DNA of 64,000 nt from Watersipora subatra (taxonomy: Eukaryota > Bryozoa > Gymnolaemata > Cheilostomatida > Watersiporidae), in NCBI RefSeq assembly GCF_963576615.1, contig NC_088711.1, positions 58,880,248 through 58,944,247 of the forward strand, written 5' to 3'. This document shows positions 11,143 through 60,211 of this stretch, in pieces. The stretch's first letter is position 1. Every line of letters begins with the position of its first letter. Position numbers and translations under genes: made by a program. Below the pieces are notes generated by a model that saw nothing but the letters and a program-made list of their open reading frames with translations, searched no databases and had not been told where the DNA came from.

Positions 11143-11688
11143 ATGGTTCGAAAACTCAAGTACCACGAGAAGAAACTTTTGAAGAAAGTAGACTTTTTGA
11201 ACTGGGAAGTTGATAGGAACAACCTAAATGAGGTGAAGATTATGAGGAAGTACAGCGTCACTCGCAACGAATATCTTGCTTACAATAAACTCTCACGTGA
11301 AATCCGAACACTGGCAGCGAAAATACAGGCTAATGAGAAAAAAGCTTTTGGGGTTCTGGCTCAGCGTCAGCTATGCCAGAAGCTCTATGACATGGGTGTT
11401 ATCACTATACAAAAACTGGGCAACTGTCACGAAGTGTCAGCCTCTAGCTTTTGCCGCCGGCGAATAGCTGTTATGGTAGTCAAATGCAAAATGGCTGACA
11501 ATCTAGTAGATGCCATAAAATATGTTGAGCATGGTCATATTAGGGTTGGGCCGGAGTGTGTTAAAGACCCAGCGATGTTGGTGACACGTAGTATGGAAGA
11601 CTTCATCACTTGGTCAGATACATCTGCTATCAAAAGGAAAGTGCAGGATTATAATGAAGTGCGAGATGACTATGATTTGAATGAGTGA
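11143..11688 (+). CDS. IMP3: U3 small nucleolar ribonucleoprotein IMP3
   Basis: Intronless 181-residue frame that is collinear with animal IMP3, which is about 184 residues long in human. Key blocks are MVRKLKYHEKKLLKKVDFLN at the start, LCQKLYDMGVI near 95, SASSFCRRRIAVM near 105, then the S4-type RNA-binding segment around 110-160 with VEHGHIRVGPECVKDPAMLV, and the conserved close SMEDFITWSD and YNEVRDDYDL. IMP3 joins IMP4 and MPP10 in the small-subunit processome and helps the U3 snoRNA pair with pre-rRNA in the nucleolus. The ATG opens the known family N-terminus, so the start is secure. An AATAAA lies at 11745, 57 bp after the stop. Being intronless it could be a retrocopy, but the frame is intact and no poly-A tail or duplication is seen. 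Confidence 0.97.
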   Translation: MVRKLKYHEKKLLKKVDFLNWEVDRNNLNEVKIMRKYSVTRNEYLAYNKLSREIRTLAAKIQANEKKAFGVLAQRQLCQKLYDMGVITIQKLGNCHEVSASSFCRRRIAVMVVKCKMADNLVDAIKYVEHGHIRVGPECVKDPAMLVTRSMEDFITWSDTSAIKRKVQDYNEVRDDYDLNE

Positions 11689-16092: not shown

Positions 16093-19000
16093 ATGGATTC
16101 GGAAAAATCGCAGAGCCATCGGGTAGATACCACACATTGTTAAAGTTTATTCTATTTTTCATTTTAAAGTTTTGCTTGTTTATGTATGGTTGACTATAGT
16201 TCGTCCTCAAACAACTGCGAATACATTTTTAAGTATCTCTCCCTTTCGTTATGAACCTTGTAAACACCGTTCCGACGTTTGAAATAGAAAAACGTCTTTG
16301 CATTTGTATAACAGGTTTAAAATTTTATTGACGGTGCAAATTTATGTTTGATGAGTGGTAGAGGTACTTGGTGTGGAGTTAGTTGGTATAGATTGTGTCA
16401 ATTGTTCATGCAAGTCAGCCATTTGAACAGAGAAAAAATTGAACGTAAAATTTAAAGTAGATTAAAATAACTTAATGACTAGTAGTGTATGATCTTAAAA
16501 GCTGTTTTACCTCAAATATTGTCTTGCTTCTTTTTCAACGATGTGCAAAAATACCCAAACTCGAATCATCCAGTCTGAGCTGCTTCTGATAAAATGTCTT
16601 GTTTGAATACAGTTCCTTTGCAATTTCAGACTAGATATGGTTATGTTGACTATGTGTGGTTATTCCTAACAGAGCCAAAGGAAGGATATACCTTCATCGG
16701 ATGTCTTTTCCTATTTCCACCGCATTAGCCAAGAGTTGGAGGCAGAGTTTCCTGATGATGAGCAAAAAGGTTCATGTCTTTAAAATTTCTATCACTAAAG
16801 CTTGACCATGCCAAATGCTATTCAAAGTAGCCTACTGACTATGAGTGTTTAATTAAGTGTTGCATGAATAAGTTCATGCTTGTCATACGATATCTGTCGT
16901 ACGTGGTATATGCATGGTCGGTATCGGTCGTAGCTTGTCATACGTCCATGTATAGATGGACATAATTGGCTTAGTCATACTTTTTTGTAACATTTGACCG
17001 GTGTGCATAACTTTAACCTCACTTTCGATTAATATTGTATTTATAATTTGAAATGAGTTTTAAACATTCCAAGGGTTTTAAAATAAATATTTCCTAAGGG
17101 TTACCAATATGTTAGCAACTAAGTAGTTCTATATTTCCTTGTCTATCTAAACCAAACTGATTTCAAAACAAAATACTATCTCTAAAGGAGTATCTGACAA
17201 TCTAAAACTCATCTATGTGTAATAGACAAATAAACATGCTCTTGCGTTCACTGTTTGTTTGTTACTTAGGGGGTACATGTGACAAAATGTCGCAAACATT
17301 TCATCCATGGACAAGGTACTCCGTAAGTATTCAATTAGTCCAACATGTATCTATAAACAGGAGTTATCCTGTATGTGTTGCTTTTAGGGATGTGCGAATG
17401 ACACAATAGTTACTTTATCAAAAACCTGTGAATCATTCCGAATATGATTCAAGTCACGGCTATGCACGCATTTATCTACGGTCAATGGAACCTATCTGTC
17501 TTACCATAAATCTTCTATTTCTATGCCATGACGCTGTATTTTTCAAACCTTAAAATAATAGTGGCATTTTATTAAAGGTGATGTTCAAATACAGGGTGGC
17601 ACTGTATTTTTCAACAGACTCATCAGAATTTTGGGACGATAAATTTAACCCTTTTACGGGTGAAGCGACACTAATGTCGACAATATTATGCACTCTCATA
17701 AAAGCGAAGCAACATTAATGCTGTCAGCCTCAGCATTTTGCTAAACTGTTTTTCATATATGTCGAAGTATCAGACTGAGTTAAAGAAGGAATGAGTAAAA
17801 GATATTAGCTGGATATAATTATCAATTGTTTCAATGGTGTTGCTTTCTATATTTTATTACTAAGCAATTCATTAAGCAAGTTTTAAAGAAAGAAGCGTAA
17901 AGCTTTAGATTTAGAAAATGAACTCCGATACGCTATAACAAGGGCTGCAATTACGCCGCACGCCCTTCTGGAAGAGTATTCTCATCTTTCATCAAAGGGC
18001 TTTCAAGTAGAGTTGCCCCGATTTTGGTATCGGAATCAGTACCGGTGCCGATATGGGCGTCAAGTACAGTCAAACATGGATAACTCGAACTTCAAGGGAC
18101 CGAGCAAAAGTGTTCGAATTATCAGAGCATTCAAGTTATCAGAGCACTGTCACAAGTCCATATATTTACTTATTTATTAGTAGATACATGTACATATACA
18201 AACTATAATATAAATCAAAAGCACAAATGGCTTGTTTCAAATTAAATGCTTCTAATGTAAAGTTTAAAACGTTTTCATGAAAAAGTATAGAGATTTTTCT
18301 ATCACTTGAGATTGGTTTGTTGTTTGAGGTGATGTTATTGCCAGGACGTTTTTCAGATTGACATTGGCAAAACTTGATCGTTGTTGAAATGCTCAAAAGA
18401 AAAGACATTTTTTTCTTTTGAGGTTTTACCCACGATCAATTTTGCCGTTTTTTCTTGAAGTTTATGCAGATTACCTTACTTTACCTGGGATTCGTTAAGA
18501 GCAACACTCCGAGGCAGTTCAATTAGAAGTTTTACGAGGTTTTACGGTACATTCTATATCACTCACGCTTTTTTAATAGATACTTATTGAATGTATACAC
18601 GTATTCTGTGTTTAGGTCAAACGATGAATAGTTTTTTGTAGCTCAGCCAACGTATACGTTTAATTACAACATTTTTTAAGACGTTTTAAACATTCAACGT
18701 TCCGACGTTGATTCAACACGGAATCAACGTCGGAAAACTATTCATCACGAGCTAGCCGAGTCACGCACTCAAGGATTTTCGCCACGCACATACAAAACAA
18801 CATGCGATTTTTGTTTTGTATGTGCGTGGCGAAAATTCTTGCGCGCGTGACCCGGCTAGCCCGTGCTATTCATCGTATCGCAGTATAAATCAAATTTCAC
18901 CAAACTTTTAGAAAAGTCGTTGACAAAAATATTTTGCCGATGGTGGTAATAACGACGCTTATGAATTACGAAAAGATGAAGTTTACCTCTATGGCTTTGA

Positions 19001-22000
19001 ATAAAGTGATTTTCTAAAGCGAAAACAACCGTTTCGGTAGCTGTTGGGCAAAAAAACAGTTCGAATTAACAGTGTTGAGTACGAGTTATCTATAGCAATT
19101 TATCATTACGTGGGAACGGACCAAAGGAAATGTTCGAATTAACCATGTGTTCGACCTATCCATGGATGAGTTATCCATGTTTGACTGTATATGAATCGGT
19201 ATCGGCCGAGTTTTTCTTAAAAACCTGAAATTTTGGACAGTTTTCACAGATCAACTATTGAGTAGAAAACAGTATTTTAGCCTGTTACATTGATAAAGAT
19301 CGTCAGCTGCAAGTTTCTTACTTTTACCTAATGAGTTTCGGGCCTGCAACACTATTTATTTTAGTCTATAGACTGATCAACATCAACACAGCTAAGGAAC
19401 CTTTTTGCTTTAATCTGGACGTGATCACAAATGTGGTATTTCCCGATTGCAGCAACGGCATTTATTGCAGCCAATCGCGAACAAGATAGCAAATAAGGGA
19501 ACCAAGAATGCAGTGTAATAATTTTATTTACTAGCATTACGAAATTAATTTGAGCAAGCGATGCAGAAAGTTATCTATTTCTCTCTTTATCCTGACAATT
19601 GATAGCTTGTTTGTTTCTTTCTTTTATTACTCATTAAATTATTATTAATTAAATTTTATTTACACATTAACTTTTGAAGTTTGTCTAAATAATCATGGTG
19701 CTACAGATCACTTGATGAGCTAGTTCTTGTGAGTAAACTTGCAGGTCTTACTACAAATTAAAAACGCTGTTCTTTCACAGGTGCTGCCAACGTTGCTGTT
19801 TTTGTTGACAACAACAATAAACACAAATAAATACATTTATATTTTCTATATTAAAATGAACAATTATCTATGCAACACAAAATATCAGAACAGAACACAG
19901 ATTATTTTTCAATAAGACTCAGTAGATCAGATCGGTAGCTGAATTGGCTGGTGAATTTGGAATTGAGGCATCTCTCCTTTTAAGTCTTCAGGTCAGATTA
20001 TAACCCACATTATGGCCGAATCTCAAGACAATGGATCAAATTTAGGTCTTAGTGACTTTGAACCAGAGTGTAGTTCTGATGGTTGCGATGATCGATCTTC
20101 TCGGGTAAACCATCGCTGAAACCATGGCAACAACGAAAGAATTAATTGTTCTTGATGTAACCGAGTCATTATTAGTACCATTTGGTGAATACTTTTGTAC
20201 TGATAACTTTCAGAATAATGGTACCGATGGTTTCGGAATAATCAAAGAAATGCATAGTGGCGGTCAAGTAGAGAGGTTTTCAATTAGAGGGTGGCGCTGT
20301 ATTTCTCAAACCTTCACCTATAGTGGCGTTTTGTTAGAGATGTGGTTCAAATAAAAATAGCTTAAATAGAAGTTTAAATAGAGGTTTTATGGTAATTGTC
20401 ATGTACCATGGTGCACCCTGCTCAAAACAAAAGCTGCTGTATTTTTCCAAACGTTATGAAATCTAAATACATCACATTCTCATGTACCATATGTGTAGCC
20501 AGTCTGAAAGCACTCTTATTGCATATTATTTATACTATTATTGCGTATCTTATTTAGTAATCCCGAAATTCAGATGTTGTGACCTTGTTTAATAGGCCAA
20601 TCTAGTTAGATACTAAACAGTTGTGACCTTGTTTAATAGGCCAATCTAGTTACGTAGATACTAAACAGTTGTGACCTTGTTTAGTAGGCCAATCTAGTTA
20701 GATACTAAACAATGGTGAGACAAATAACGATGGCCAATATGTATCCCACTCCTCACAACAGCTACCACGATTGTGCAAATGTTGACGGTATGTGATTGAA
20801 ATCGGTTGAGAGTCTTGTACTACATATACATGTACATGCATCTTATGGGTAGGGTATTCACAAACATCCTCCGAGTTGTATATATATAAGAATTCCAGTC
20901 TTTAAATAAAGAGAGGTGTATATTATGTGTTACAGAGCTCTTTCTTAACAACATCTTTGATGAACTTGAGACGCACTTTGTTGCCATTGTCACTCATAAA
21001 AGGCACAGCTACACTGTTCAAAAGTTGGTAAACTTGCTTAACTCCGACCAGCTGGAGAGAATCTTTCGAAGAGTTCTGAAGGATTTTGAGGTATTTTTAA
21101 TGTTATTATCTGGGTCTATCCATAATCACCATTGTTACAATTAGAGCATAAATTTAATTATAAATATAAAAGATTGGTATTGCATTTAAGATGATTTTAA
21201 ATCAGATATTCTCCTAGAGCTCAACAAGCTCTTTCGAATGATGTATAATATGTCACACTAAAGTTAATTTTTACTGAGAAATTTTTTAGTTAGTGTGTCA
21301 CTCGCGTTACATCAGAGAAATATGCATTTTGAAGAGCTAGTTGCTTATCCTTAAAACTCTCTGATTTGTTGGCAAGCACAATTATAAAAACTTATTTGTC
21401 TTATTTTAAAGAAGCTTGCTGACATATGCACTAAAATTTATACAGATATTAGATGGTAGCGGTGAACTACTTGCTTGTAAACATGTCACCGCTGTTACAT
21501 CCGATTGTCACCGTTGTTACGCTTCTTATATTCTGTAAACTTATAAGTATTTAAGTTCACTGCAATGAGATCAATAATGGTATTAAAGCTAATGATTACA
21601 ATATATATAGACAAGCCTTAACTTGAAATGTTTTTTATTGGTTTCAAAGTATAAAATATAACAATATAATAGTAATAATACATGACAAACATGATTAAGC
21701 TTAAATAATGTAAGATGAAAAAATGAATATTGATCATGTAATTGTGAGAATGTACTAACAAAATGTTTTAGAGCATTCTGCATGCTCTAAATCTTCTGTA
21801 AAACATTACTGACCTCTTTTAGAGAGAGTAGGAAAGACAGTGACTTGGCTATGTGATGAAATTCTACCAATGCAATATTTTTTGTATTAACAACAAAAGT
21901 GTTTTTTGGCTTCACTCTTTAAAAAAAACTGCAATTTAGCTTTGAAGGTATCTACACTATTTACCACTCCTACATAATGCCTAAAAGTTTTTTTTTCCAG

Positions 22001-25000
22001 GCAGTAGTGTTAGCACAAAATCACCTTCTTTCATTGTGCTTGCTAGTTGTTTGATGGGTTCGGAATTGCACTCACTTTTTGGGTCACTGATTGCATGGTC
22101 ATCAGGATCTATGTAAAAGTTAAAACTTTTCAATGGCATACTTTTACTTTTCTATTTCTTTGTTTTATTTTATCTTTTCTCGTCTCTATTGCGGTCTTCT
22201 GACAATGATAGTCCAACTGTCATTGCTAGTTTATGGACAGTCTGGCGACATTTGCTTGGGCTGTTTAGAAGTGCTCGATCAATCTTTTTACAGCTTTATC
22301 TTCAGATTGTGGGTTGCCAAATTGGGAAGTGGTGGCTACAAAAAATGAATATAAACTTTAATAACATTTTTTTACAAAATACATGAAACATTAACTTGAA
22401 ACATCCATAATGTACGCATATGTAGTGAAGCATTAAGTTTTTTGAAGAAAATAAATGAATGTACATACACGGTAATTTTACTTTCAAAAGGTTTTTCCCG
22501 ATCTCTGTATTGCTTAACTCTAGTTCTTGCTTTTTCTCTCGAGTTTCCTCCAATTGGTCTTCTGTAAGTTGAGCTCTTTATTTTGTTCTACTCTTTTGAT
22601 TTTGACTAGGGCAGTCAAATATTGAGTCTATTGTTTTGAATATTGACATATTTTTTACGATATTTACGCATCTGCTCTGCAGATGTTGTCTTACCCATGT
22701 TGAAAGCAGAAATGACCGGCAGACTTTCCACCTAACAATATTCTTGTTTCAAGCACTTGTTACAAGTTACTCCCATGAGTAGATTTGATTAAATTTTGAA
22801 CCATTCTCAGTATCCTAGTCTCAATTCTTAGTAATACATTTGTAAGGTAGGAACCATTTGCTAACTTGCTAGAAGAAGCTTGTTAAGTTCCCACAAATTA
22901 CTGTTAAATGTGAAATTCACTCAAATTAATCCTATAATTATATGAGTTGAGGGGTGTAACAATGGTGACAGTGTAACAGCGGTGACGCAAATTTCGGAAA
23001 CATGTGCAACTTTGAGCAAAACTGAAATTAGTTAAAGGTACAACGTATAAAGTTAGCGTTGAAAACAAATTACTACTAATTTTTAACTAATAATACAAGT
23101 GTAGTAGAAACTTATTGATGTTTCCTGTCACCATTGTTACTCAAAACATGCCAACTTATAAAAGAGCCCCACACCAATAGATCAGTGCACGCAATGCCAA
23201 TATATGCATTAACGGGCAGCAAAGCCATTGTGAAATCCATTACAATTAGATATTTGGGTTCAGAGTAATATGTATACCATGTACAAGCATCTCTATCTTA
23301 CCATTATGGCCATAAAGTATTTTGTGCATATACACTAACTTTAGCAAACTATTAAAACACAATAGAGGAGCACTACCCCCACAATTATTTCCTATTTTAG
23401 GGTTTGGTATGTATACTTCATATGTGAAGCATTATTTTAATGAAATTACTGTTTTGAAATTTTGCCAAAAAATCCATTTATTTATGGATAGACCCATCTA
23501 TACTACTCAGAAGTGTCTGTCAAAGTGTTATCTATATTACCTTTTCTCTTTTATTTGGTTGTGAGTCGGAAGTAGAGACATTTACACTCTATATCATCTT
23601 AAAGATAACCCGCATGTCTATGTTTTTATAAAGTTGGCCAAAAATGTTGCATTAAAAATATTTTGAGCTGTCGGGAAAATAAAGTACTAGAGGAGATAAC
23701 TTTGCTCTTCCTGTCTTGTTTTGAAGATGAACTTTGACCAATTTTTAGTAAATTTTATCAGAAACTCAGCATTTTTCTGTCATTTGCAATTGTTTTTGAC
23801 GTTTGAGGTGATCTGACTTACAGGATGTTTCAAGATTAAAATCAACAGAATTTGATCGTTGTTAAAACTCTTAGAATAAAAATGTGTGTCGTAATGATGT
23901 CACTGGTTACGCGGCTGCCTGTCTCTCTGATTATCGATATCGGCTATTGCGCTCAAGTTATAGCGTTACACGTCTCTATTCTGTCGGTCTGTTTGCTGAA
24001 GTGCAACTACAGGCATCATAATCGCACTCTCGCTTGAATCTGTGTGTTTCGATCGCCATCAAGTTGTGTCGATTTCAATCTTGAAACATTTTGGCAGTCA
24101 GCTCGTCTCAAGAATAAAAAATAATCACAAATTATAGAAAATTATCGATACTTTGTGATAAAATATACTAAGTTTGTGTAAGTTCATCTTAAGCAGTTGT
24201 CTTCATGTGCCACATAATAGCATAACTTGTAAAAGAACATCGATGCTCTGATCAATAAATGATATGATACTCTGAATCATGTGAACAACTCAATAGTGTT
24301 AGTTATGCTTCAATTCATGTTTGGCTTTTATCCTTTAAGTAACAATTTGTTTTCGTAAGTATGATAAACCTTTTCATTCAATTTTTAAACTTGAAAATTA
24401 GACTTGACAGATTGTCTGTGCCTAAAAACTTAAGTATGCATTGAACAGAGCCGAGGTTAGCATAAACATGCGCATGCAGGCTCTAAAAATACGTCAAACT
24501 CTCAGAGGTTGCAACATTGGTCATGACTAACAACTTTCCATAATTCCAAATTAAATCCAATCTTAAATCCAAATCAATTAATGTAATTTGGTTCATCCAT
24601 CTTTAAATTTATTCTAAATTTTCTAAGATCGTTACCTTGAATTGTTTTTCTCACGCACTTTAATAATCTGAGGTTGGCCCTATACGTTTTGTGCGTCTTA
24701 AAAATATATACACATACCCGGAGTATTAATAAATATATACACATACCCGGAGTATTAATAAATATATACACATACCCGAAGTATTAATAAATATATACAC
24801 ATACCCGGAGTATTAATAAGTATATACACATACCCGGAGTATTAATAAATATATACACATACCCGAAGTAATAATAAATATATACACATACCCGAAGTAT
24901 TAATAAATATATACACATACCCGAAGTATTAATAAATATATACAGGGTAAGGCCGTTTTTGGCAGGATTGTGACGCGCGGGACATTTGAATGTTTCCTCG

Positions 25001-28000
25001 CATACATCTCAGCTCAGATGCGAAATTCTGGTGTCATTTATACTGTTTTAGAAAGCACTTGACATCAACTATCAGTGAATAAGATTTTATCCTTGTCATG
25101 AAATGCGTTAATAAATTATGAACCATTAAAGCTAGTGTGACGCGCGGGACCATAATTTGACATGAAAAACTACTCTTTGATCAAATGGAAAAATCTTCTG
25201 AAATTTTAGACTCATAACATTATTATTTGACTAGCTTAAAGCTCTTATGCTATTCTACTAGGAATACATACCATTTGTTTTCAGGCCAAAGTTTAATGAT
25301 TCTGTAAAGTTTGAAAGAAGACTACCACTTGTGACGCGCGGGACTGTGACGCGCGGGACAAAAATAACATTATGAAAAATTAAGCATCTTTCTATGTTTT
25401 GTAGTTGTTAGACCACAAATTGCCATGAGTTGTAGTTGTAACATTGAATATACATGTACTTGTGCTAAACCAACCAATAATTTAAAATTATTATATATTG
25501 TATTTATTTTATTTAAACGTCAAACATAAAACAGGTATAACATAAAGATTGTCAGACTTTTATGCAGTAAACCATTTTCTTTTAAAATCATCATACTCTG
25601 CCATTATTATCGCCTCATTTTCTAGTACAAAGTATCTCAGGGACCGGGTAGTTGCAGCTGGGACAATAACAGGGCATACTTGAAGAAGAAAATTCCTGTG
25701 GGTGGTCCTTATGTCGTCGGGGCTTGGCCACATGAACTGCTTGCGTGCACGGTGCATATATTTTATAATGTAGCTACCTTCATTAACTTCCCCTGTGAGA
25801 ATTTCTCCAATGCTTACTTCAGAATCATAGGCCACTGCGACTAGCATTTGTGGTAAGAACTGAGTCAATGTTCGTGAAGTAGCTTCTGTGGTTACCATTT
25901 GATCCGGTTTGCTGCTCGGTGTGGATGGAACTGGCTGCCAAGTGGAAGGACACCATTCCATCAGTCTAACATCGCCATCTTCTTTAATGGTTATGTGATG
26001 GCAAGATCGAATGCCATGAATTGGAGGTGCAGTGGACCAGCGTTGTTTGCAGATCCACGCTGTTTTAGTGATCACATTTTCTGAGATGTATAAAATCTTT
26101 ATTGGTTTTACTGATTTGGAAGTTATTTTTGTTGCAGCTTCTGCAAATGACTTCGCTGAGTTTACGACATACCTTCCCCGATATACTGCCATTAATACCT
26201 GTTGCTTGATGCTTCCCCCAACACCATCTACTGCACCTTTGCCATGCGATGTCTCAAAAAAACTTCAGTCAGCTGGCATACCCATTTCTTCCTTATGCGC
26301 AATCAAGTTCTGAACTGTGAACCGATTTTTAAATTGCGATGCGGATCCATCACTTACATAATGAATATGTTGCAAGTTAATACTTTCTGCTTTCAGAAAC
26401 TTGACAAGTTCTCTATTAAACGTGTAAACTGCATCCTTAGTGTGTTCTAGACTATCACTAACTATTGCAAAGCATTTGTGGACTAGAACTCCATCCAGCT
26501 TATAATAAATTATGACAGTGAATACTGTCACCCCTATTGTGGTGTAGTAGGCACTTTGGATTTCGGTTGCTTGCTTACAGTTAAAGTTTTCACTGAAGTC
26601 TTCGTGAATGATCACTTCCCCATTTTTTAAATTTTGTTTGAGGTAACTGATTGATTTGTGTTGACGGTTGGAAGTGTACATATGAAGGGAAAGTGATGTC
26701 AGTTGGTATTTCAGCAGCACAAGCAAGTCAGACGATGGCATCTGATCTTCGAGCTTGTTTAGGAAGCCATTTTCACCATCTCTCCACTGATAAAAATTCA
26801 CATGTTCTTTAGCGCTAACAACCAAACTATCGATTGAATCGACGCCACAAGAGTTGCATTCCCTCTTCAGGCATGATTCATTTTCCATGTTACACACAGT
26901 TCTTTTCAGTAGCTGGTGGACAGTAGTAGGCATTTCCAGAGAACAGACACTTGCCTGCCGCAGTCCCAATAGAGCTAACTCCGCATTTTCGCAGTATTTG
27001 CAAGCACAGACAATTTGATCATGTCTAGAAACTGGCTTGCAATTTACCGGGCGCAACTCCTTAAATTTACTAAGGCTCACCTTGATATCTGGATATTCCT
27101 CATTAAAAATCTCAAAGATGTCACTCAACGTGTAGTTCAGCAAGTGTTTTCGAAGTTTTCGTCGCTTACCAGTCTTGTCTTTTACACTGATGGTATCCTT
27201 CTGGCCTGGCATTACTCGACTGATCTTACTGTCCAGGTAAAAATGTGTTATCTTCTCCACTGTTGATTCAAGTAGCTTGTTCCGTGGCTGAAAATTTATT
27301 CGCGCTTTTGGTTTAGGCTGACAAACTGCTTGAAGGACAATATCCTGTTTGGTCGGGCTCATCATGGACAGCTCTTTACCAATCAAAAGAGCTTTTTTAC
27401 GCGGAGAGTGTGGCAATGCTGTCTGTAGTTTTTTTCTTGCTCGTCCTTCAGACTGTCGACTTGGAAATATGGAAGAGGTGCTTGTTTCCGGTGTTGAATT
27501 AGTGTCTGCCTTTTTAGCGCGATATTTGGCCTTTCTCTCTCTTTCCTTATCGCGCGTTGCTTCTAAATCTGATGGAGTCATGCGAAATTTCTTTCTCTCC
27601 CTGCGCTGTCTACACCTATAAAATCATAAAGCTGTACACTCATATGCAATACAGATTATACCATATTATGTACATATTATATACATGTATATGGCATGAA
27701 ACCTGTTGAATGTTTGCTCAAATTCGTGATTCACTTTACATTATTGAAGCACCACTATGGTGATTGATAAAACATGCTGTACATACTCGTATATATTTGC
27801 TCAGAAATGTAAAATAGGCATAAAAATATATTTTACCTTTCATTCTCTAGTTTCCTGAATGCTTTAAATCCATGTTGTGCTATGAAGATTTCTCTACTTT
27901 TACGCTTACGATCCATTGAGTTAGGCATCTTGCAAGCAAATGACATCTAACATAACGTCAAGTATGACATGACGCTGAGCGTTATGCTGAACGCAATGTT

Positions 28001-31000
28001 ATTCTGTCAGCCCTGCCTGACAGGGAGGATGGCATGCTGTTTAGTATGGTGTCATTTTGGCAGTATTACCATGCCGCCAGGAAGTGTGGCATGATGTTAA
28101 CAGCAGTTTGGCAGTCATTAGAAAACATGCAAGTTCGAAAGTGTGAAAACAGCAAACGTATTTCATTCTGAAAAATTCTGACAGTGTTTATGAGGGAAAC
28201 CTACTTACTCTACTGACTGAAAATTCAATGCATGAGTGAAAGGGAATTTTCGTAACCATACTTTAAGAATACACATTTGGTTCAAAGATTACCTCGTGAT
28301 CTGCACACTAGTGTGTATCAAAAGAATAATCTTGACAAGCTCCATATTCTGAGTTACAAAACATCATAAAATATTTCTATTTCATTATTTTTCTAAAAAA
28401 AACTGGCTCTATAAACTTGGAATATCCAGCATTACTTTCACATACCAGGGTATCAGAGAGAATTCCCAAACAAAGGCAGACATCACCAAATTACTAAAAA
28501 TGTCCCGCGCGTCACAAATACATCCATGTACCTATAAAACTGAAACTTGCAGTATTTTCAGAAAATTGGCGAGTTTATCTAAGCTATAGCAGCCCAAAAT
28601 CGAATTATAGATGAGAATTTTTTATCTCAGATAGCTTTGAAAAAGTAGGCTGCAACTAAATACACTAAAATTGTGACGCGCGGGACAAACTATTTTTTGC
28701 TTGCCTGAATGGTAAGGAAAAATTTTCATTTTCTAGGAAAAAACACCTGGGCTAGAAAATCCACTCATGTATTGATTATAAAATGGAAGCAAAATTTATT
28801 TCAGAATGATTTGCAAAGTTTGAGAGCATATGATCAATTGTCCCGCGCGTCACACACGATACCAGAGAAACCTACTTGCATGCCCAATATCTTCATGAGA
28901 GAAGATTTGATTATAAAAACTTTTGTGTTTCCATATGTCTGAACATGTTTACTCGCTAATTAACTGAAAATTATGGTTGCAAAAGGCAGAAAAAAAATTG
29001 CCTTTGTGTGTGACACCATGCTTGGCCTTGCCCTACACATACCCGAAGTGTTAATAAATATATACACATACCCGAAGTATTAATAAATATATACACATAC
29101 CCGAAGTATTAATAAATATATACACATACCCGAAGTATTAATAAAATATTAACTGAAGAGTTGAACACCAAAAAATTACTTTCCGTGGACTAAAATAATA
29201 TTATAAGTAAGAGGAAATTATGCCTTGCTAAAAGTCACTACAAATATGTTTCGTGTAAGACTGACAAGTTGACGGATTGTTTTTTCAGCTGACAAGCAGA
29301 GAGTTACAAAAGGCTCTTAAGGTGACAATTCACCATTTGTTAAGAAATTTATAAGTTATATAATAATAAGCTATCAAATACTACAAATATATATATTCAA
29401 GACCAAGTGACATAAACAAACCATACTTATAATACATGCGAACAAAAAACTAACATTTTTGAAACAAAAATATTTGCATCGTTTGCTTGACCAGTTGTGT
29501 TCTGATTGTTGCATTTGTTTGGAACATTTCATATTCTTTTGGCTGTTCAATATCTTCCTCAGTGTCTTCTGACCTTAACTCTTCTGAACTCGTCGATATT
29601 AGCGCCCAAACAATTTTTGTAGGAGAGCAAAAATTTTACACGTTGCTTTTCGCACAGATAAGGAAATACAGTCAAACATGGATAACTCGTCCACGGATAG
29701 CTCGAACACATGGTTAATTCGAACAGTTCCTTTGGTCCGTTCCCACGTAATGATAAATTGCTATAGATAACTCGAACTCAACACTGTTAATTCGAACTGT
29801 TTTTTTGCCCAACGGTACCGAAACGGTTGTTATCGCTTTAGAAAATCACTTTATTCAAAGCCATAGAGGTAAACTTCATCTTTTCGTAATTCATAAGCGT
29901 CGTTATTACCACCATCGGCAAAATATTTTTGTCAACGACTTTTCTAAAAGTTTGGTGAAATTTGATTTATACTGCGATACGATGAATAGCACGGGCTAGC
30001 CGGGTCACGCGCGCAAGGATTTTCGCCACGCACATACAAAACAAAAATCGCATGTTGTTTTGTATGTGCGTGGCGAAAATCCTTGAGTGCGTGACCCGGC
30101 TAGCCCGTGATGAATAGTTTTCCGACGTTGATTCCGTATTGAATCAACGTCGGAATGTTGAATGTTTAAAACGTCTTAAAAAATGTTGTAATTAAACGTA
30201 TACGTTGTCTGAGCTACAAAAAACTATTCATCGTTTGACCTAAACACAGAATACGTGTGTACATTTAATAAATATTTATTAAAAAAGCGTGAGTGATATA
30301 GAATGTATCGTAAAACCTCGTAAAACTTCTAATTGAACTGCCTCGGAGTGTTGCTCTTAACGAATCCCAGGTAAAGTAAGGTAATCTGCATAAACTTCAA
30401 GAAAAAAACGGCAAAGTTGATCGTGGGTAAAACCCCAAAAGAAAAAAATGTCTTTTCTTTTGAGCATTTCAACAACGATCAAGTTTTGCCAATGTCAATC
30501 TGAAAAACGTCCTGGCAATAACATCACCTCAAACAACAAACCAATCTCAAGTGATAGAAAAATCTCTATACTTTTTCATGAAAACGTTTTAAACTTTACA
30601 TTAGAAGCATTTAATTTGTAACAAGCCATTTGTGCTTTTGATTTATATTATAGTTTGTATATGTACATGTATCTACTAATAAATAAGTAAATATATGGAC
30701 TTGTGACAGTGCTCTGATAACTTGAACGCTCTGATAATTCGAACACTTTTGCTCGGTCCCTTGAAGTTCGAGTTATCCATGTTTGACTGTACATGGTAAC
30801 ACGCGCTAAGCACAAATTGTAGCTAAAAATAGTAGTGCAGATTATATTGTGATTGCTAATCATTTTTCACATACGTCGAAGTATCAAGATCACGTTAAAC
30901 AAGAAACTAATATTAGCCTGATACAGTTATTAATAATTTCTATGGGGTTGCTTTCAAAGTTTTAATGAAAAAAACCAAAAAGCTTTGGCATTTGAAAATG

Positions 31001-40000: not shown

Positions 40001-43000
40001 CATTTCGTATATTTTTCCGTTTAATATCGACTTATCATTTGCTTTCTCTTTGTATTATCTTTCATTTTACTGGCAAACTTTCGGTCTACGCGCAGTACTT
40101 TTAATTCACATAATTCTGCACAGAAAATCGTGCACACAAAAACACGGAACAACAGTATAACCTGAGCAGTTGAAAAATACAGAGTGATGCTGTTCTCATA
40201 AAACACCTCCGGCATACTTGGCAACTGACTCAAGTGCTCGCATCTCAAACATGGCTCGTATGTTAGTGCTAAAACTTGCTTGAAAGCTGGCTCGTATCTC
40301 AAGTTTCTCGTACGTTGGAGCACTCGTAAGTTGAAGTATTACTGTATATACAAGCAGTTGGTGATTCACTGCTCAACTTGCAAAATTTTTGTTTGCTCTT
40401 TTTTATATTTAATTTATATGCTGCTGGTGAGCCGTACTTGTAAACAATTGTTTAGTGTAAAAGGCTGGGGAACATCCTTTTCTGGTTTTTCAGGTTGTTA
40501 ATTTCAACCTCCATCCTGTGTGGAGACTGTGTAATTGTGTGCATTGACCTTAGTTTTCTGTGTAACATCTGTATAGTAATTGCCAGGAACTGGACAGCGT
40601 GATGTTAAATGCAAAGACCATGAGTTCTATGAGGAGTTTGCTCCCCTGCTCAGAGTATTCTCCAATCAGCTTCTACCCACCTCAGACGCAACATTTGGTA
40701 TGGCTGAGTTTATAAGCTTCTATTTCTTGCACCATTTCTCCTTGAGATCGTCTCATGTACATGTCTAAATTCAAAGTTCTTCCTGTATGTATTGGTTTAT
40801 TCATTGAATTGTCTGCACTTGTCTGTCTGTTGTTTCACTAGTGTTTTCATAGAATTGCCATTATTTTTTACTTATTCCTATGTAGAGTTATTCTTAGATT
40901 GGCTTGTCTATATGCGGAGTTGTGTTCCAACATAAATTTCTCATCAAGTGAACTGGCTTCCGATTTGTTGTCTACACATAGGCGTGCCTTGACTGATTAA
41001 ACAGAATTTTGCTTGTGAGAAAGCCATGGTGTACTAGTTAAAATGGACTCTGTGAATTACTTTGCAAAAAATGCTTAGCAAAGATTTAAAAGAATGGTAG
41101 ACATCAACTTGTTTGATGATTCGTCAAATGTTTGCCGAGTTTCATTTACTAGCAATGTCATCGCATAGTTTTTTTTTGACAGATTGGTATATTCAGGAAT
41201 GAAGATACCTTTAGCAAACCTATAGCCTTACACAGTTATACATAACAGCTATACGCAGTTATACATAACAGCTATACACAGTTATACATAACTGCTATAT
41301 ACAGTTATACATAACAGCTATACACAGTTATACATAACTGCTATATACAGTTATACATAACAGCTATACACAGTTATACATAACAGCTATACGCAGTTAT
41401 ACATTACAGCTATACACAGTTATACATTACAGCTATACACAGTTATACATTACAGCGATACGCAGTTATACATTACTGCTATACACATAACAGCTAGCCT
41501 TGTTAAAATGTTCAACTTCTTTAGTACTCCTAATAATTATGGATTTATTTCATAATTCCATTGCAGGGCTGATCCATGATAGCGCTACGTCTGCATTGGC
41601 TCAGACACTCATGGCTGTGGTTGCCAAAGCTGACCAGGATGAGTTCAGAAAAATGTGCAGCGCCATCATTAACAATGGCTTATTCGATAAAATGGATGCG
41701 TAAGAATGTTTCTCTTTTTTGAGTTATCTTCCCAATGTCATAATATTGCCTCTCTAACATTATTGATGGCATTCAATTTTCGGTCCTGCAATTTCGTGTT
41801 TTAGCGATAGACATTCTGTTTTGTTTCTAACGGATTGACATGCTATTTTGTTGCCTAGGGATGGACTTCCAGCTCCTATGACCAGTAAAAGTGGGTCATA
41901 TTATTGCTCGAAGCTGTTCCAGTTATTTGATTCTCACTCTATGGGCGTGTTCATCGAGCAAGTGATTGTTCCCCATTTTGATGAGTTACTCGCTCACCCT
42001 ATTGCTAACCATGCACTGAAGGACGTAATCGGCAGTGTCCGTGAATACAATCAGGTCAGTTTAGACATCAGCTACAGAACTACAGCTGCTTATAGGCATA
42101 ACTCGAGATTGCGAGGTTCCATGCTTTAGAAGTGCATAAATAAAAAGGCAAGCTAAAGTCTGGTTCCCATATACGTCGCAAAGCACCGGCGACAGCACCG
42201 CAGGCTATTAGTGGTGAAATGGAAACCTACGCGCCAGGTATCGCCGAGGACCGCCGGTAGTTGCCGGCGGCATCGCGATAGTTTAGCACTGTTTAAATTT
42301 CGCAAAAGGCTGCCGTCAAAACCTTCCCGAAATGCACTGTACGGGTGAAGGTCACCATTATAGAAACGGCATGGCTAGCGAACATTTTATTTGATTACGC
42401 ATTATGTTAACGGTACAGCTTATATGTGAACATATGCCGCCAAGCCTAACGTCGCAAACGTTTCGCTGCGCAAGTTACCGCCGGAGTATCGCAATCGATA
42501 TGGGAACCAGGCTTTAGCAATGCCTAGGTTCGGTGGTAGATTGAGAAATAGAAATATGCGGCATGAATTTTTCTAAGTTACCCTACATATAGTTTTAATA
42601 ACTGAATCTATTTATCTCTCTTTTTGTTTTTAATCTATACCACTCTTTTTATTTTTTACCTTCAAACTTAAAATATTGCAAGAAATTTTGAGAATTGCGT
42701 CAAAAAGGGAAGCGAAATATTTGCTCAATTTTATGTCATTCGTCAAAAACTCTTGTAGGTGTAGATGGTTATAACTTCTAATCATTGGTGATTAACTCAT
42801 AACTTATTATGGTTTACCTGCGTTATGGTTTACCTGCGTTATGGTTTACCTGCGTTATGGTTTACCTGCGTTATGGTTTACCTGCGTTATGGTTTACCTG
42901 CGTTATGGTTTACCTGCGTTATGGTTTACCTGCGTTATGGTTTACCTGCGTTATGGTTTACCTGCGTTATGGTTTACCTGCGTTATGGTTTACCTGCGTT

Positions 43001-46000
43001 ATGGTTTACCTGCGTTATGGTTTACCTGCGTTATGGTTTACCTGCGTTATGGTTTACCTGCGTTATGGTTTACCTGCGTTATGGTTTACCTGCGTTATGG
43101 TTTACCTGCGTTATGGTTTACCTGCGTTATGGTTTACCTGCGTTATGGTTTACCTGCGTTATGGTTTACCTGCGTTATGGTTTACCTGCGTTATGGTTTA
43201 CCTGCGTTATGGTTTACCTGCGTTATGGTTTACCTGCGTTATGGTTTACCTGCGTTATGTGTTGCAAATACAAAGACATGCACAATGTCATTGCTAATTC
43301 TGGCATATGAGTATTAGCTGTATGGCTGGTCATCATCAATTATTTGGAAAGAAAAATGTGTTTTCTGTAATTTGTAATTTAATAAAATTAATTCTATTGA
43401 CATTGCCCGTATTTGGTCCTTCCTCTGTTTTCTTGTTTTCTCTGTCATCTGCCTTTCTTATTGTTCTACCACTTATTCTACCACTTTCTGTGTCCTCTCC
43501 ATATACCCTCTTTGTCTGCCAACAAAAATGAATTGTAAGCTGGTTCTTCAGTGTACCAGATAAATTATATCGACTAAAGCTTAATCCTGCTGTGAGTCTG
43601 TTTGTTGGGCACCCGCAATGTGTTATATACCATAAAACATCTATTTTAACGCCACTATAGCAGAAGGATTGAAAAATACAGGGCCACCCTTTTATGGACG
43701 CTATTTCTTATTGTTCCGCCACTTTAATATTCTTCTGATCTTCTGAACTCATAATAGAAAGTAATCAGTAGAAAATTGTCCACAGGATAGTCCTAATAAT
43801 GACTCGGTTACATCGATAACAATTAATTCTTTCGTTTTTGCTGCGGTGGCTGGTATGACTTTAGTTACGGCGTACCTGAGAAGAATGATCGTCAAAATCA
43901 TCAGAGCTACTCTATGATTTGAAATTACTAAGGTCTAAATCAGATTCATTGTCTTCAGATTTGTTCAAAATGTGGTTTGCAATCTGACCTGAAGACTTTA
44001 AAGTTGAAGTGTTTTTTAATGAGCGCTGAGAATAATTTCCAGGAACACCATACTAAGTAATAGCAGCCATTATTATGGCGTATTGAAGTCCGTTTTTTTA
44101 ACTCCAATGCTTTACAGTTTTTTAAACTCTGAAAGCTACACCAACAGCAATAATTTCTAACTGTATCTGGCTAATATCCAGATCATTAAATCCGGGTTGA
44201 AAAATACAGCACCTCAAATAGAGGTTGTACAGTAGTCACTTTTGTTTCCCCTGTCTGCCTGTCTCATCCCTTGTTTCATTTAATTAAGTTCAGAGGAAGT
44301 ACTCCCTATGTTATAGTTTAAGAAGGTGTGCGAACTCCTCAAAGGAAAGTTGTTATTCGCAATCAGCCAGAACAGAGGAGGTTTGGTGCACTCTTTGGCC
44401 TCTGCTGCCGTTGGATTCCCTAAAAGAGAGGCAAAGCTGCTGCAAGTAAGTCCCTGTCATATTGAACCTTTTGATAGACTGGAGACTTTTGATAGACTTT
44501 GATTTAGACTAGGGAGGTCTCGCATCACCTCTCGCCATTTCTTGTAGAGTCTCAATGAAGAGCTGGACAATCCTGAGATAAACCTTATCTTCGCAATTGC
44601 TAGTGGCTCACCCTCCGCTCTCAAAACTGCTGAGGTTGGTAATGGATGTAGTTATGTTCTTGGAATGGTTTTAGGTGTCTGCAAAGTTAGTTTTCAGACA
44701 TCATGAAATTATCAGTTTGTTATTATCATCAGTTGAATTATTAGTTTGCTCAGAAATGATAGTTGCGGTGAAAAATATTGGAAAACCCTTGTGCTCATTT
44801 TTTACAATTTTAAATAATATAAACCCGTAAAACTCAAATTTGTCTTTAAATTCCAGCTTTTCTCCATCGTTGATGGCGTTGCTAGGTCAGACCAGAAAAA
44901 CAAACAAGAGAAATCATAACTATGCAAATTGAACTCGGACAAATTACAAAAATGGAATTGCCATTTGCATCACAATCATGATCTACCAACATACGAGTTG
45001 TATCAATTTTTTCGCGATGCCGCACTAATAAAATTTATTATTAAGTCGAAGGAAGTGAAGATATTTGAAAACTTAAAAATAAATGAGACATTTCTGGTCA
45101 AACATCCTGTGCAAAAAGTAATCTGATTGGTTTACGCTGTTATTTCGAAACTGCCTTTGTAAACAAAGCTATGTGAATGCCAGAATTCCAGCCGCTAGGG
45201 ATTTTGACACACCCTACGCAATGCTGGAAAATCGGACGTTAGGGTTCAAAGGGTTAATTCTACAGGCGGGCCAGACGTTATTGATTTTATGACAGAGGCT
45301 GCGGGCCGGATGAAAATTGACCCTGGGCCACATTTGGCCCGCCGGCTGGACTTTGGACATGTTTGATCTATACAATATACCAAATATCTATACAATATAC
45401 TCCATATATATACAATATACTCCATATATATAATAAAATATACACAATATCCATACAATATACACAATATCTATAGAAAATACTCAATATACATGTAGAT
45501 GCAATACACACGATATATATATATACAATATCTATACAATATACTCAATATACATACAATATACACAAAAGACAATAAAACTCGGATAACTTGCCCTGGG
45601 ATAGCTCGAACATATGGTTAACTCGAACGGATTTGTTTGGTTCGTTCCCACGTAATGATAAATTGCTTTAGATAACTCGACCTTAACTTCGTTAACTTTA
45701 ACAGTTTTTGCCCAACGGCTACCGAGATGGTTGTTATCACTTTAAATTATCACTTTATTCTAAGCCATAGAGATAAACATCAACCTTTAGTAGTTCTTAG
45801 GTGTCATTATTACCATTATCGGCAAAATATTTTTTGTTAAAGGTTGACTTGCCACAAAATTCACATTACAGTTATTTGGTATCAAAAGATTCACCATGTC
45901 TTACTCTGTTATGTTGTAGGTGCCAAATATGTGGAAATGTGATTACAAGCTCTTAAAAGCTCAAAAACGAAAAGCGGCCGTAGATTGGAATCTCTTTATT

Positions 46001-49000
46001 TCTCTGACGTAGTCATGAAATTTATTTATTGTCTTGTCACATGATGTTCTCATGTGAATGGAAAAGCCAATAAAAAGCTCAATATAAAACTTATCGTAAC
46101 ACTAGTTTATGACAAACACGTCGGGTTTTACCGAAGACCCCGTATCAAACATGGATGCTCGCTACTTTACAGTTTTGTTTCAGTTTGGTCTAATCGACAA
46201 GTCGTAATCTGATCATGTGACCCAATACTTCACAAATAATTTTTGCAGCACTTTTCGATTATCACAGGTGACCAACAGGCTCGTCATGATTATCAGACAA
46301 TGATATGTACTCCTTCGAGGTAAGGCTAAAAAATTATACGAATTTTTACGGTAAGTTATAAGATATCACTGCTAAAAGTGACAGCATTACGATGACGATA
46401 AAACAGACGCGTAAGAACAATAGACATGGTTTTATTGAATGCGTAAAGTATAGGTATTTGTGAAAATATTTCGACGAATAAGGTTGCATGAAAGTGTAAA
46501 CAGAAACCATCTCCCACAACTACGTCACATTTGAGCCGTTTTGGAAAGAGAATCCAAACTACGGCGGTCTCGTGTGGCTGCGATTAACTGTTCGTTTTTT
46601 AGCTTTCAAGAGCTTGTAATCACATTCCCACATGTTTTGCACCTACAACACAACAGAGTAAGACATGGTGAATTAGAGCGTTATTAGAGTTATTAGAGCG
46701 TTCAAGTTATCAGGACAGTCATAAGTGCACGTATTTATCAGTAGATACATGTACATATACAAACTATATATCAATCAAAAGCATAGATTGCTTGTTGCCA
46801 GTTAAAGGGTCTCTCGTGTGAAGTTTTAAATATTTTTAATCGGAAAGTATAGATATTTTTCCATCACTTGAGATTTGTTTGTTGCTTTAGGTGATGTGAC
46901 TGCCAGGACGTTTTCAGATTAAAATTGGCAAAACTTGATCGCGGTTAAAACGCTCAAAAAAAATACATACGTATTTTTCTACCGAGCGTTTTAACCAAGA
47001 TCAATTTTGCAGTAAGTTAGTTATTACAAAACTGCTTTACTATTAAAAACCCATTATCAATTTTGCCGATATTACTTTAAAGTTATCCAAATTTTACTTC
47101 GCTTTTCTTGCATTCGGAGGGCTTATCGCTAAGCGGATGTTTGTTAAAATTTAATTTTTGCAAACTTTTAGAAAAGTCGTTAATGAAAATATTTGCCGAT
47201 GTTGGTAATAACGAGGCATAAGAACTCCTAAAAGTCGATGTTTATCTCTATGGCTTGGAATAAAGTGATATTCTAAAGCGATAGTAACAACCGTCTCGGT
47301 AGCCGTTTGGCAAAAAACTGTTCGAGTTAACGGAGTTTCGGTCGAGTTATCTAAAGCCATTTATCATTGCGTGGGAACGGACCAAGCAAATCCATTCGAG
47401 TTAACCATGTGTTCGATATATCCGAGGGCGATTTATCCAAGTTTCACTGTATCTACAATATAGGACTATATACTGCAGTACTACCTCGTAGCTAGTTTAT
47501 GTTAGTCTCTGGTTACATGAGTCTGGTGACAAAAGAAAAGGGGTTCAACATAACGTAGTCAGAGTTGAAATATATGTTAGTTAATGAATCAATTTATATT
47601 TTTGGCAGTAGTTGTATATTATGATGCATCATATATCGATGGCTGGGGTGTGACTACCAACGTAATACATACTGTACGTAGATGGAGTAGCCTGTGGGTC
47701 AAATGTCACTGAGAGTGGCTTGTTGATGATAACTCCGTGTTTATGGATACATGTAGGGCTAAATTCATGATTATCTTAATTGATTACATGATAATTGGGT
47801 CACATAGAGTCTGTTGACAGTAAGCTTTAATCTTTTTAGTTAGTTTTTAGGCTATGATAACCAAATGTTTGCCTTATTGCAAATACTTTGACTATTTCAT
47901 TCTGTTCATTAGTGGGACATTAATATAATATACATCAATAGAATAGACATTAACAGAATAGACATTAATCGAATAGACATTAATAGAATATACATCAATA
48001 GAATAGACACCAATAGAATAGACATCAATAGAATAGACATTAATAGAATAGACATTAATAGAATATACATTAATAGAATAGACATCAATAGAATAGACAT
48101 CAATAGAATAGACATTAATAGAATAGACATCAATAGAATAGACATTAACAGAATAGACATTAATAGAATAGACATTAACATAATAGACATTAATAGAATA
48201 GACATTAATAGAATAGACATCAATAGAATAGACATTAATAGAATAGACATTAATAGAATAGACATCAATAGAATAGACATTAACAGAATAGACATTAATA
48301 GAATAGACATTAGTAGAATAGACATTAATAAAATAGACATTAATAGAATAGACATCAATAGAATAGACATTAACGGAATAGACATTAATAGAATAGACAT
48401 TAATAGAATAGACATTAATAGAATAGACATTAATAGAATAGACATCAATAGAATAGACACCAATAAAATATACATCAATAGAATAGACATTAACAGAATA
48501 GACATTAACAGAATAGACATTAACAGAATAGACATTAACAGAATAGACATTAATAGAATAGACATTAACAGAATAGACATTAATAGAATAGACATTAATA
48601 GAATAGACATTAGTAGAATAGACATCAATAGAATAGACATCAATAGAATAGACACCAATAGAATATACATCAATAGAATAGACATTAACATAATAGACAT
48701 TAATAGAATAGACATTAATAGAATAGACATTAATAGAATAGACATTAATAGAATAGACATCAATAGAATAGACATTAACAGAATAGACATTAATAGAATA
48801 GACATTAGTAGAATAGACATTAATAGAATAGACATTAATAGAATAGACATCAATAGAATAGACATTAACAGAATAGACATTAATAGAATAGACATTAACA
48901 TAATAGACATTAATAGAATAGACATTAATAGAATAGACATCAATAGAATAGACATTAATAGAATAGACATTAATAGAATAGACATCAATAGAATAGACAT

Positions 49001-52000
49001 TAACAGAATAGACATTAATAGAATAGACATTAGTAGAATAGACATTAATAGAATAGACATTAATAGAATAGACATCAATAGAATAGACATTAACGGAATA
49101 GACATTAATAGAATAGACATTAATAGAATAGACATTAATAGAATAGACATCAATAGAATAGACACCAATAAAATATACATCAATAGAATAGACATTAACA
49201 GAATAGACATTAACAGAATAGACATTAATAGAATAGACATTAACAGAATAGACATTAATAGAATAGACATTAATAGAATAGACATTAGTAGAATAGACAT
49301 CAATAGAATAGACATCAATAGAATAGACACCAATAGAATATACATCAATAGAATAGACATTAACATAATAGACATTAATAGAATAGACATTAATAGAATA
49401 GACATTAATAGAATAGACATTAATAGAATATACATTAATAGAATAGACATTAATAGAATAGACATCAATAGAATAGACATTAATAGAATAGACATCAATA
49501 GAATAGACATCAATAGAATAGACATTAATAGAATAGACATCAATAGAATAGACATCAATAGAATAGACATCAATAGAATAGACATTAATAGAATAGACAT
49601 CAATAGAATAGACATTAACAGAATAGACATTAATAGAATAGACATTAACAGAATAGACATTAATAGAATAGACATTAATAGGATAGACATTAATAGAATA
49701 GACATCAATAGAATAGACATCAATAGAATAGACACCAATAGAATATACATCAATAGAATAGACATTAACAGAATAGACATTAATAGAATAGACATTAACA
49801 GAATATACATCAATAGAATAGACATTAACAGAATAGACATTAATAGAATAGACATTAACAGAATAGACATTAATAGAATAGACATTAATAGAATAGACAT
49901 TAATAGAATAGACATTAATGGAATAGACATTCATAGAATGTTAATAAAATAATTACTGTGTCAAACAGATATTGCTAAAGTAAGATGTAGACGATAACTG
50001 AAGGTTACGGAGTAATCATAAGATATGTAACACGTGTTTCATTTTCATAACCGATCACCTTCTCATCAAACAAATTTCTGTTTTACTAATGATTTGCACA
50101 TAAGCATAGATTTTCTTGAGATTTGTCATTTGTTTTTTGACAAATTAAACATGGTATGGTTTGGCAAATGGCAATTCATTACACCGTGATTTAGGTCAGC
50201 TTTTCAGTTCACTGTTAAATTGAATCAAATAATCTAAGTTTTGTTTTGTCAAATTATCCTCAATTCCGTAAATTATTTATGATGTCACTGTTTAGTCATG
50301 TTGTCTTTAGAAGGCTAAGGCTCTCAATCGCCTGCCTTATTGGAGCTCCCAGCTTCTTCAGAAGATGTTCAATTTCAAGGATACCACACAAATCTGCGCT
50401 AGCCTCAGCTCCATTCCTGCTGATAATGTAGTTACTGAACTCGCCTGCAGCAAAACTGGATCATACGTATTGGAAAGCGTGTTCACATCTACAAATGTTG
50501 ATCAGTCTTTCAAGCTCAGCTTTTTACGATCACTCCTGGTAAGTGTATAGATTTATCCCAGATGTCTTAGTACAAGATTTGGAGAAGAGCTCATCTTGTA
50601 CTTGCAATGTTTGTAAAAGAGGTGTGTTGGAAAAGGAGGCAACTCCTAAAGAGTATGGTGTAAGGCTTTTCATAATATTTAACAGGTAATGTGTCGGTAG
50701 TGGTTTAGTTACATTTGCAAACACGATATGCCAGCATAACAACTATCTGATAAAACAATGCAAACTTTCCTGGAGCGAGGAAAGTTAACCAGTCATTACA
50801 GGTTGATTGTTTGCTTCGTGTCTTCATAAATCACACAAGTGTTAAGTACCTTCTGAAACAGCCAATCCTAAAAGGGAGCCTTTCATCAAGCTCTTTAGAG
50901 GATAGAAAGGTTCATATTAGTCTCATGTACAAAACTTAACAATTCATTCCATTTCTACTGTCCTATTCGTATGCAGTACGTCGAGGGTCTGGGTTGTTTA
51001 CCTTTCATAAAGCTGATGTATGTTACAGAACTATCTGTCTATAATGATCACGGACAAAGTAGGAAGCAGAGTGTTTGACTCTGCCTGGCCTGTCATGACA
51101 ATTCCTCTCAAGAAGGAGGTTATGGAAGCACTGAAAAATTCAGTAGCCGCAATCATGCGTAAGTTCTAGCTACTCATTGTTTGTGCATTTTAAAGATTTC
51201 TGTTGTTTTATAAGTCAGAGACAAGTACTAACAAGTAGTTTCCTAAACATAAATTACTTGTAGGTATCATATAACTAAACTCCCTGCTGTTTAGATTACA
51301 AGTGTCAGAACAAACTCATACCTTGAGTAGTTCGTCATGTGCAATGGAACGTTATAGTAAAGAGAAGATAACTTCTATATAACTGTGTACAGTGGAACCT
51401 CCACTTACTAAAAACTCTACATTCGAAATGTTCAAGTTACAAAATGTCTTTTGGTAGAAATTTTCGAGGATTTACAAAAACTATTTCTAGATTGAATTGA
51501 ATTTTTGGAATGGGGAATACTATTGTGAATGATGGTCCAAACCCTGGTTGGTCAGTTGCACGGCCAGACCTCTTTACTGGGTAAAGAACTTGTATGAATG
51601 TTTTTTGCAGGTTCTCAGACTGGCAAATTTGTGGCTCGTAACATAATGCTGCAGGACTACATTCATAGCAGAGACACCTGGAACTCTTGGGTCATTGCAG
51701 AAAATCAGAAGAGATCCATGAAGTATGGCAAAAATACTAAAAAAATTTCCAAGGATTCAAGGTCGGAAAATCTAAAAGTGGTGCAAAAAGGTTTGAAGTT
51801 TTCTAGCCCTAAGCAGAAACTTGTGAAGGATGGTGGGGCTTCAAAATTGCCTTTCTCTGAAATAAAAAAGAAAAAGCTAGCAAGCAAGACTGAGGATGAA
51901 CCAACCGAGCATAAGATTAAAAAAAAAGTGGTTCAAGCAACTGAACTTAAAGTTAAAAAGAAAAAATCAATCGACACCGCCGAGGTTGAACCAACAGAGC

Positions 52001-60085: not shown

Positions 60086-60211
60086 TTCAATCGATCACTG
60101 TGCACCGGCAGCTTTCAATAGTAGCGATAGGAACCAAATTAACTACAGGATTGTCCAATAGTATATTATACAATCTAATGTCATTGACATTAGATCCTGC
60201 CTACGACGCCA

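Follow-up and report, generated by a model that had tools for sequence, protein, structure and literature searches.

Element E1 and Its Gene

The stretch of 64,000 nucleotides of the bryozoan Watersipora subatra analysed here ("the window"; contig NC_088711.1, positions 58,880,248 to 58,944,247) harbors a mobile element, E1, whose parts are collected in Table 1. E1 is delimited by the GGG-type terminal repeats GGGTAAGGCC and GGGCAAGGCC, which differ by one mismatch, and has TACA on both sides. It was inserted within a 29-bp tandem array, and its empty site is therefore unusually clear. When overlaps of 0 to 28 bases were tried, the right flank continued the left array in phase with 107/116 matches at a 4-base overlap, the next-best overlap reaching 55/116. 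As the phase fits only with four bases duplicated, TACA is a true 4-bp target-site duplication. An earlier note, made from the letters of this DNA, had described a DNA transposon with exactly these coordinates, terminal repeats, and duplication, and with seven copies of a 15-mer in its ends. All of these stand, and the genome-wide search for copies with the same ends that it had proposed yielded them, with their own 4-bp duplications.

The E1 gene is composed of two exons with 721 codons and ends with a stop at 25560. This structure was also part of the earlier note, which had missed an in-frame TGA. In the alignment of the protein with its relatives (A2, 67 rows; 66 relatives, mostly near full length, hand-picked from 128 listed), the TGA column is occupied by Trp in 63/67 rows, the window row itself being read as Trp, and the gene of the E1 copy is thus broken.

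Table 1. Positions in the window of E1, its gene, and its subterminal sites.
Feature	Position	Strand	Remarks
29-bp tandem array, left part	24698..24944		interrupted by E1
Left TACA target-site duplication	24941..24944		array phase test
Whole element E1	24945..29033	gene on minus strand	4089 bp; from ends, duplication, and further copies
Terminal repeat GGGTAAGGCC	24945..24954	+	gene-3' end
15-mer	24969..24983	+	offset 24 from gene-3' end
15-mer	25136..25150	+	offset 191 from gene-3' end
15-mer, first of tandem pair	25330..25344	+	offset 385 from gene-3' end
15-mer, second of tandem pair	25345..25359	+	offset 400 from gene-3' end
Exon 2	25560..27615	-	predicted DDD transposase: Cys/His cluster; RNase-H core; beta domain at the C-terminus
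In-frame TGA of the E1 copy	26265..26267	-	
Intron	27616..27836	-	GT..AG
Exon 1	27837..27946	-	codons 1-37, last codon split; same structure in uninterrupted copy L060
15-mer, reading inward	28502..28516	-	offset 517 from gene-5' end
15-mer, reversed	28672..28686	+	offset 347 from gene-5' end
15-mer, reading inward	28840..28854	-	offset 179 from gene-5' end
Terminal repeat GGGCAAGGCC	29024..29033	-	gene-5' end; one mismatch vs GGGTAAGGCC
Right TACA target-site duplication	29034..29037		array phase test
29-bp tandem array, right part	29034..29149		

Copies in the Host Genome

The host genome (783.7 Mb in 239 contigs) contains 279 exact copies of the E1 15-mer, TGTGACGCGCGGGAC, and none of the same pattern read backwards. 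From the 100 of these 279 places that were listed, 20 surrounding regions were picked by hand. Both ends are present in 16 of them, with a perfect 4-bp duplication in 13 and a one-base difference in the other three. Eight further loci of the E1 family display both ends in six cases, five of these with a perfect duplication. With E1 itself, 29 copies were looked at, and 19 of the 23 both-ended ones show a perfect duplication. These 19 duplications are 84% A+T and are not one word (e.g., TACA, ACCT, TGTT, and ATGA). Many copies have suffered internal deletions and kept both ends, as in non-autonomous derivatives. L060, a full-length copy of 4086 bp on another contig, is 97.8% identical to E1 at the DNA level and is bordered by ATAT on both sides. 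Its 721-codon frame is uninterrupted and has the splice sites of E1, so that an apparently intact copy exists. The family hence displays inverted ends, a duplication of constant length, and several copies at unrelated sites, the marks of a cut-and-paste transposon.

Two E1-like copies, L026 and L027, are more diverged (77-82% DNA identity) and have in common an unusual 176-bp motif gap. They lie on a single contig with about 0.5 Mb between them and may form a subfamily of their own or have arisen by segmental copying. Tandem arrays hold three of the 24 insertions examined (E1, L060, and L024, in units of 29, 25, and 38 bp), a possible target preference.

The Predicted Transposase and Its Relatives

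In the numbering of the exon-2 reading, the three aspartates singled out in the earlier note (Asp 376, 459, and 500) are D339, D422, and D463. They form a conserved triad, D-79-D-40-D, in a predicted RNase-H core (D339 in 66/67 rows of A2, D422 and D463 in 67/67). A structure model derived from 67 sequences (mean pLDDT 86.9), which supersedes one from 17 sequences (pLDDT 69.5), places D339 on strand 333-340, D422 on strand 416-422, and D463 in helix 461-478. Alignment and model bear out the expectation of a DDD transposase: in the RNase-H-fold DD(E/D) enzymes, the three acidic residues are carried by strand 1, the end of strand 4, and the last helix of the core, respectively. The model also matches solved integrases and transposases in fold: the catalytic core is common with retroviral integrase and Mos1 transposase, at 8-16% identity in the rows shown and with an Asp as third residue in E1. 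This likeness is no evidence of family membership. The best match of the protein profile to the sequences of solved structures has an E of 0.043. We infer that the E1-family protein is the transposase.

One relative search found 235 proteins, 120 of them listed. Among the matches listed, named relatives include cnidarians, molluscs, insects, echinoderms, a tunicate, and fishes; the earlier note had been right on cnidarians and molluscs and too narrow in naming these alone. Most of the listed relatives are nameless, those with a label being "uncharacterized", "hypothetical", "unnamed", and, in one case, "Sentrin-specific protease 2". Several (P0003, P0017, P0019, P0020, P0053, and others) are fused to a Ulp1-type cysteine protease domain, and one other has a weak OTU match. 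Against Pfam, the window protein gives no match, and no named transposase family is found among the matches listed for the 67 members (25 of 33 families, E 0.1). The best Pfam link is DUF7869 (PF25273), for which Pfam states no function. Six of the 67 aligned members reach it at E ≤0.1, the best with an E of 2.1e-5 over 148/192 profile positions and 24.6 bits vs. a cut-off of 26, and the protein database lists it for the relative P0118. A literature search for DUF7869 by name found no paper.

One relative, the L001 protein (29% identical), is encoded on a metagenome contig labelled bacterial, which is presumably animal contamination. Plasmids and phages gave no match in tblastn with the L001 protein, and two scans of viral contigs with family alignments yielded 43 and 18 pattern matches, respectively, and no relative. 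A structural search against viral proteins returned two matches below 1e-3 (an unnamed protein and a transactivator/viroplasmin), no relative by name, followed by several RNase H and terminase entries. Rfam had no match in positions 24000-30000 of the window. In the host genome, the L001 protein has 65 matches of 26-41% identity, some of which are copies of the E1 family or of the L061 family described below. Several others have open frames, stop-free over 500-750 codons, and there are apparently more families of E1-type transposases in this one genome.

The Subterminal Array

All seven 15-mers of E1 are exact copies. With up to three mismatches, the 15-mer has eight matches in the window vs. 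0.16 expected; this and the 279 genome copies rule out a chance repeat. The flanks of the E1 15-mers are mutually unrelated, the tandem pair excepted. Each copy carries three CpGs, and 21 of the 39 CpGs of the two non-coding ends fall in the 15-mers. The array had been taken as part of the element ends, and it does recur, in other letters, in the relatives L001 and L061/L062.

L061 (42% identity) and its sister L062 (40%) represent a further family in the host genome. As they are 96-98% alike where alignable, they are counted as one family. Their motif is ATCATACAAGGGACA, with a consensus devoid of CpG; they possess imperfect GGG repeats (16/18 in L061) and ATTT and CTAT duplications. L001 harbors eight copies of another motif, GTGTTGGACGTACA, vs. 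0.01 expected, none of them inside the open reading frame, and several have TATG where others have TACG, a change at a CpG. A 12-bp GGG repeat with 12/12 matches lies outside these copies. In shuffles, at least 11 matches were reached by a GGG-started pair in 0/1000 and at least 12 by any pair in 22/1000.

The places of the sites were measured to a GGAC core common to the three motifs. From the gene-3' end, the cores are found at 37, 204, 398, and 413 bp in E1, at 36, 204, 400, and 414 bp in L061/L062, and at 20, 189, 377, and 398 bp in L001. Between the gene-3' sites, all in one orientation, the gaps are 167, 194, and 15 bp in E1 vs. 169, 188, and 21 bp in L001. From the other end, E1 displays cores at 192 (forward), 349 (reversed), and 530 bp (forward), L061/L062 at 192 (forward) and 349 bp (reversed), and L001 at 370 (reversed), 526 (forward), and 547 and 561 bp (both reversed). 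Under random placement, the agreement of E1 and L061 within 3 bp (outer edges) has a P of 3e-6 at the 3' end when orientation is ignored and, for the matched pair of 5' sites, of 7.6e-5 when it is taken into account; the spacing match of E1 and L001 has a P of 6e-5 at a tolerance of 16 bp. Of the five inter-site stretches, four are no more similar between E1 and L061 than shuffled sequence. The sites keep their places, while neither their letters nor those of the spacers are retained.

Proposed Mechanism

We regard E1, with a probability of roughly 0.8, as a broken copy of a DNA transposon of the cut-and-paste kind whose inferred transposase binds a fixed, asymmetric subterminal array that acts as a ruler. 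The repeated motif would be the binding site of the transposase, probably contacted by its basic N-terminal helical region and its Cys/His cluster. The array-bound transposase would pair one gene-3' end, with its outermost site and tandem pair, with one gene-5' end, whose sites alternate in orientation. Cleavage at the GGG termini would be the work of the DDD core, and the ends would be joined to the target strands with a stagger of 4 bp. Between families, the motif letters would change together with the protein while the spacing stays, and it is in this sense that the array would work like a ruler, with steps of ~168 and ~195 bp. As a speculation, the common step of 167-170 bp may correspond to ~16 helical turns or to one nucleosome.

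Subterminal repeats bound by the element's own protein are known from the plant elements Spm/En (the TnpA 12-mer) and Ac/Ds. As in E1, many short sites are repeated at both ends and in both orientations; these elements belong, however, to other superfamilies, with duplications of 3 and 8 bp vs. 4 in E1, and we know of no array in them whose spacing is kept between families of different motifs. The ends of Tn7 and phage Mu likewise carry fixed, asymmetric arrays of transposase sites on the left and right, an arrangement that E1 would match if its motif is bound as proposed, but they are bacterial, have other transposases, and hold much closer sites.

Several observations weigh against this proposal or against parts of it. 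A perfect duplication is missing in 4/23 copies of the E1 family, and 6/29 were left out of the count for lack of an identifiable end (L025, L027, L028, L029, L068, and L069). The proposed ends of L001 are flanked by AAAT and TTCT, i.e., not by a duplication, and, given also the 22/1000 shuffles, are provisional. The absolute gene-3' offsets of L001 are 15-21 bp shorter than those of E1, and its 5' array matches only partly. L061 and L062 miss the third 5' site, and one of the five inter-site stretches retains a weak local match (6/300 shuffles as good). A fourth relative, L070 (C1:4290608, 27% to L001), shows no repeated motif or end in the 1001 bp downstream of its matched frame; its end may lie further out. 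The pattern had already been seen when the statistics were devised: the E1-L001 match was noticed before testing and foreshadowed that of E1 and L061, whose 3-bp tolerance was also picked after looking. For the fold, Foldseek without realignment is weak (best E 4.3e-3, with the better model).

Alternative Explanations and Classification

Other origins of the array have to be weighed. A chance minisatellite or host tandem repeat would fit the position of E1 inside a tandem array and the one tandem pair of motifs; it is refuted by the equal gaps that recur in copies at unrelated sites, directly surrounded by tandem arrays in only 3/24 insertions (E1, L060, and L024), and its likelihood is negligible. 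The CpG richness of the E1 motif and the TATG for TACG changes in L001 would suit a promoter or methylation element, or a site for a host factor such as a CpG-binding protein, serving expression or silencing. Such a role is quite unlikely: both ends carry the motif, one copy lying 24 bp inside the terminus that is away from the gene start, the L061 consensus is devoid of CpG, and places are kept while letters differ between families, which suggests a co-change with the element's own protein. The common spacing might also be inherited, unselected, from an ancestor whose descendants accumulated saturating substitutions and few indels. The E1 and L061 families are indeed related and reside in one genome, and the slight drift of the L001 spacing keeps this explanation alive. 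Yet the spacers are largely unalignable while the spacing is kept within 2 bp over 414 bp, diverging unselected DNA would gain indels, and the motif letters have changed where their places have not; we find unselected inheritance unlikely.

Concerning classification, Sola3 elements duplicate TTAA, and the duplications of hAT, P, and Zisupton/KDZ fall in the 7-12 bp range. The 4-bp duplications of the E1 family rule out hAT, P, MULE, and Zisupton/KDZ (7-12 bp), and the words TACA, ACCT, TGTT, and ATGA a TTAA-only duplication as in Kolobok, piggyBac, and Sola3. In excerpts of the literature, the TTAA rule is given for piggyBac and Kolobok (PMC9587614), and a long duplication for MULE (PMC10741241). 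Tc1/mariner (TA, a 2-bp duplication; same excerpt) is also ruled out by the 4-bp duplications. The chances are about even that E1 is a member of Sola, already in Repbase by that name, only the motif array being undescribed. Excerpts of PMC10741241 describe Sola as a DDD transposase with 4-bp duplications, mostly 2-9 kb long, with very variable termini and terminal repeats of 11-1124 bp; those of PMC3627910 give Sola2 terminal inverted repeats (TIRs) of 12-21 bp and AT-rich 4-bp duplications. The triad (by alignment and model only), the 4-bp duplication, AT-rich targets (as in Sola2), and size are as in Sola1-3, the TIRs also being short, and E1, L060, and L061 each fit in triad or in duplication and size. 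On the other side, the window protein has no Pfam match, most of the listed relatives are nameless, the E1 terminal repeat (10 bp with one mismatch) is slightly under the 11-1124 bp range, that of L061 being 16/18 and that of L001 a provisional 12/12, and the excerpts of both papers make no mention of a fixed-spacing array. E1 is therefore described as a DDD cut-and-paste transposon with features compatible with Sola, to which it is likened by description only. Of the match that would overturn the earlier note's reading of E1 as apparently unclassified (a known superfamily with the same target duplication), Sola supplies the duplication half. It is a bolder and rather doubtful proposal that the family represents an animal-wide DDD superfamily distinct from the named ones, in which the ends are a molecular ruler, with short transposase sites placed asymmetrically at ~24, 192, 387, and 401 bp from one end and at ~180 and 347 bp from the opposite one. 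Site sequence and transposase specificity would change together between families while these distances shift by only a few base pairs, and a ~168-bp nucleosome step possibly places synapsis on chromatin.

Other Features of the Window

Two 1.13-kb copies in opposite orientation (18061-19190 and 29666-30795) are ~98% alike and have short inverted ends of their own (TACAGTCAAACATGGATAACTC...), and the region around 45.6-47.5 kb matches them partially and more weakly; we take them to be probably a mariner-type non-autonomous element. A 1386-codon open frame (55934-60094) looks by eye like a Gypsy-type retrotransposon polyprotein, and two others resemble, also by eye, IMP3 (11143-11688) and HMG-CoA lyase (62671-63408). 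Long minisatellites occupy 47916-49939 (15-bp unit, 135 copies) and 42807-43259 (16-bp unit, 28 copies, 100% matches).

Significance

A large and mostly unnamed animal protein family is hereby tied to a defined mobile element, with its ends, its duplication, and a potentially working copy. As letters change and places stay, the family offers a direct test of the co-evolution of transposase and site. The array further makes it possible to test if a eukaryotic transposon gauges the synapsis of its ends by helical turns or by nucleosomes. If E1 proves to be a Sola element, that superfamily would gain a mechanism to test.

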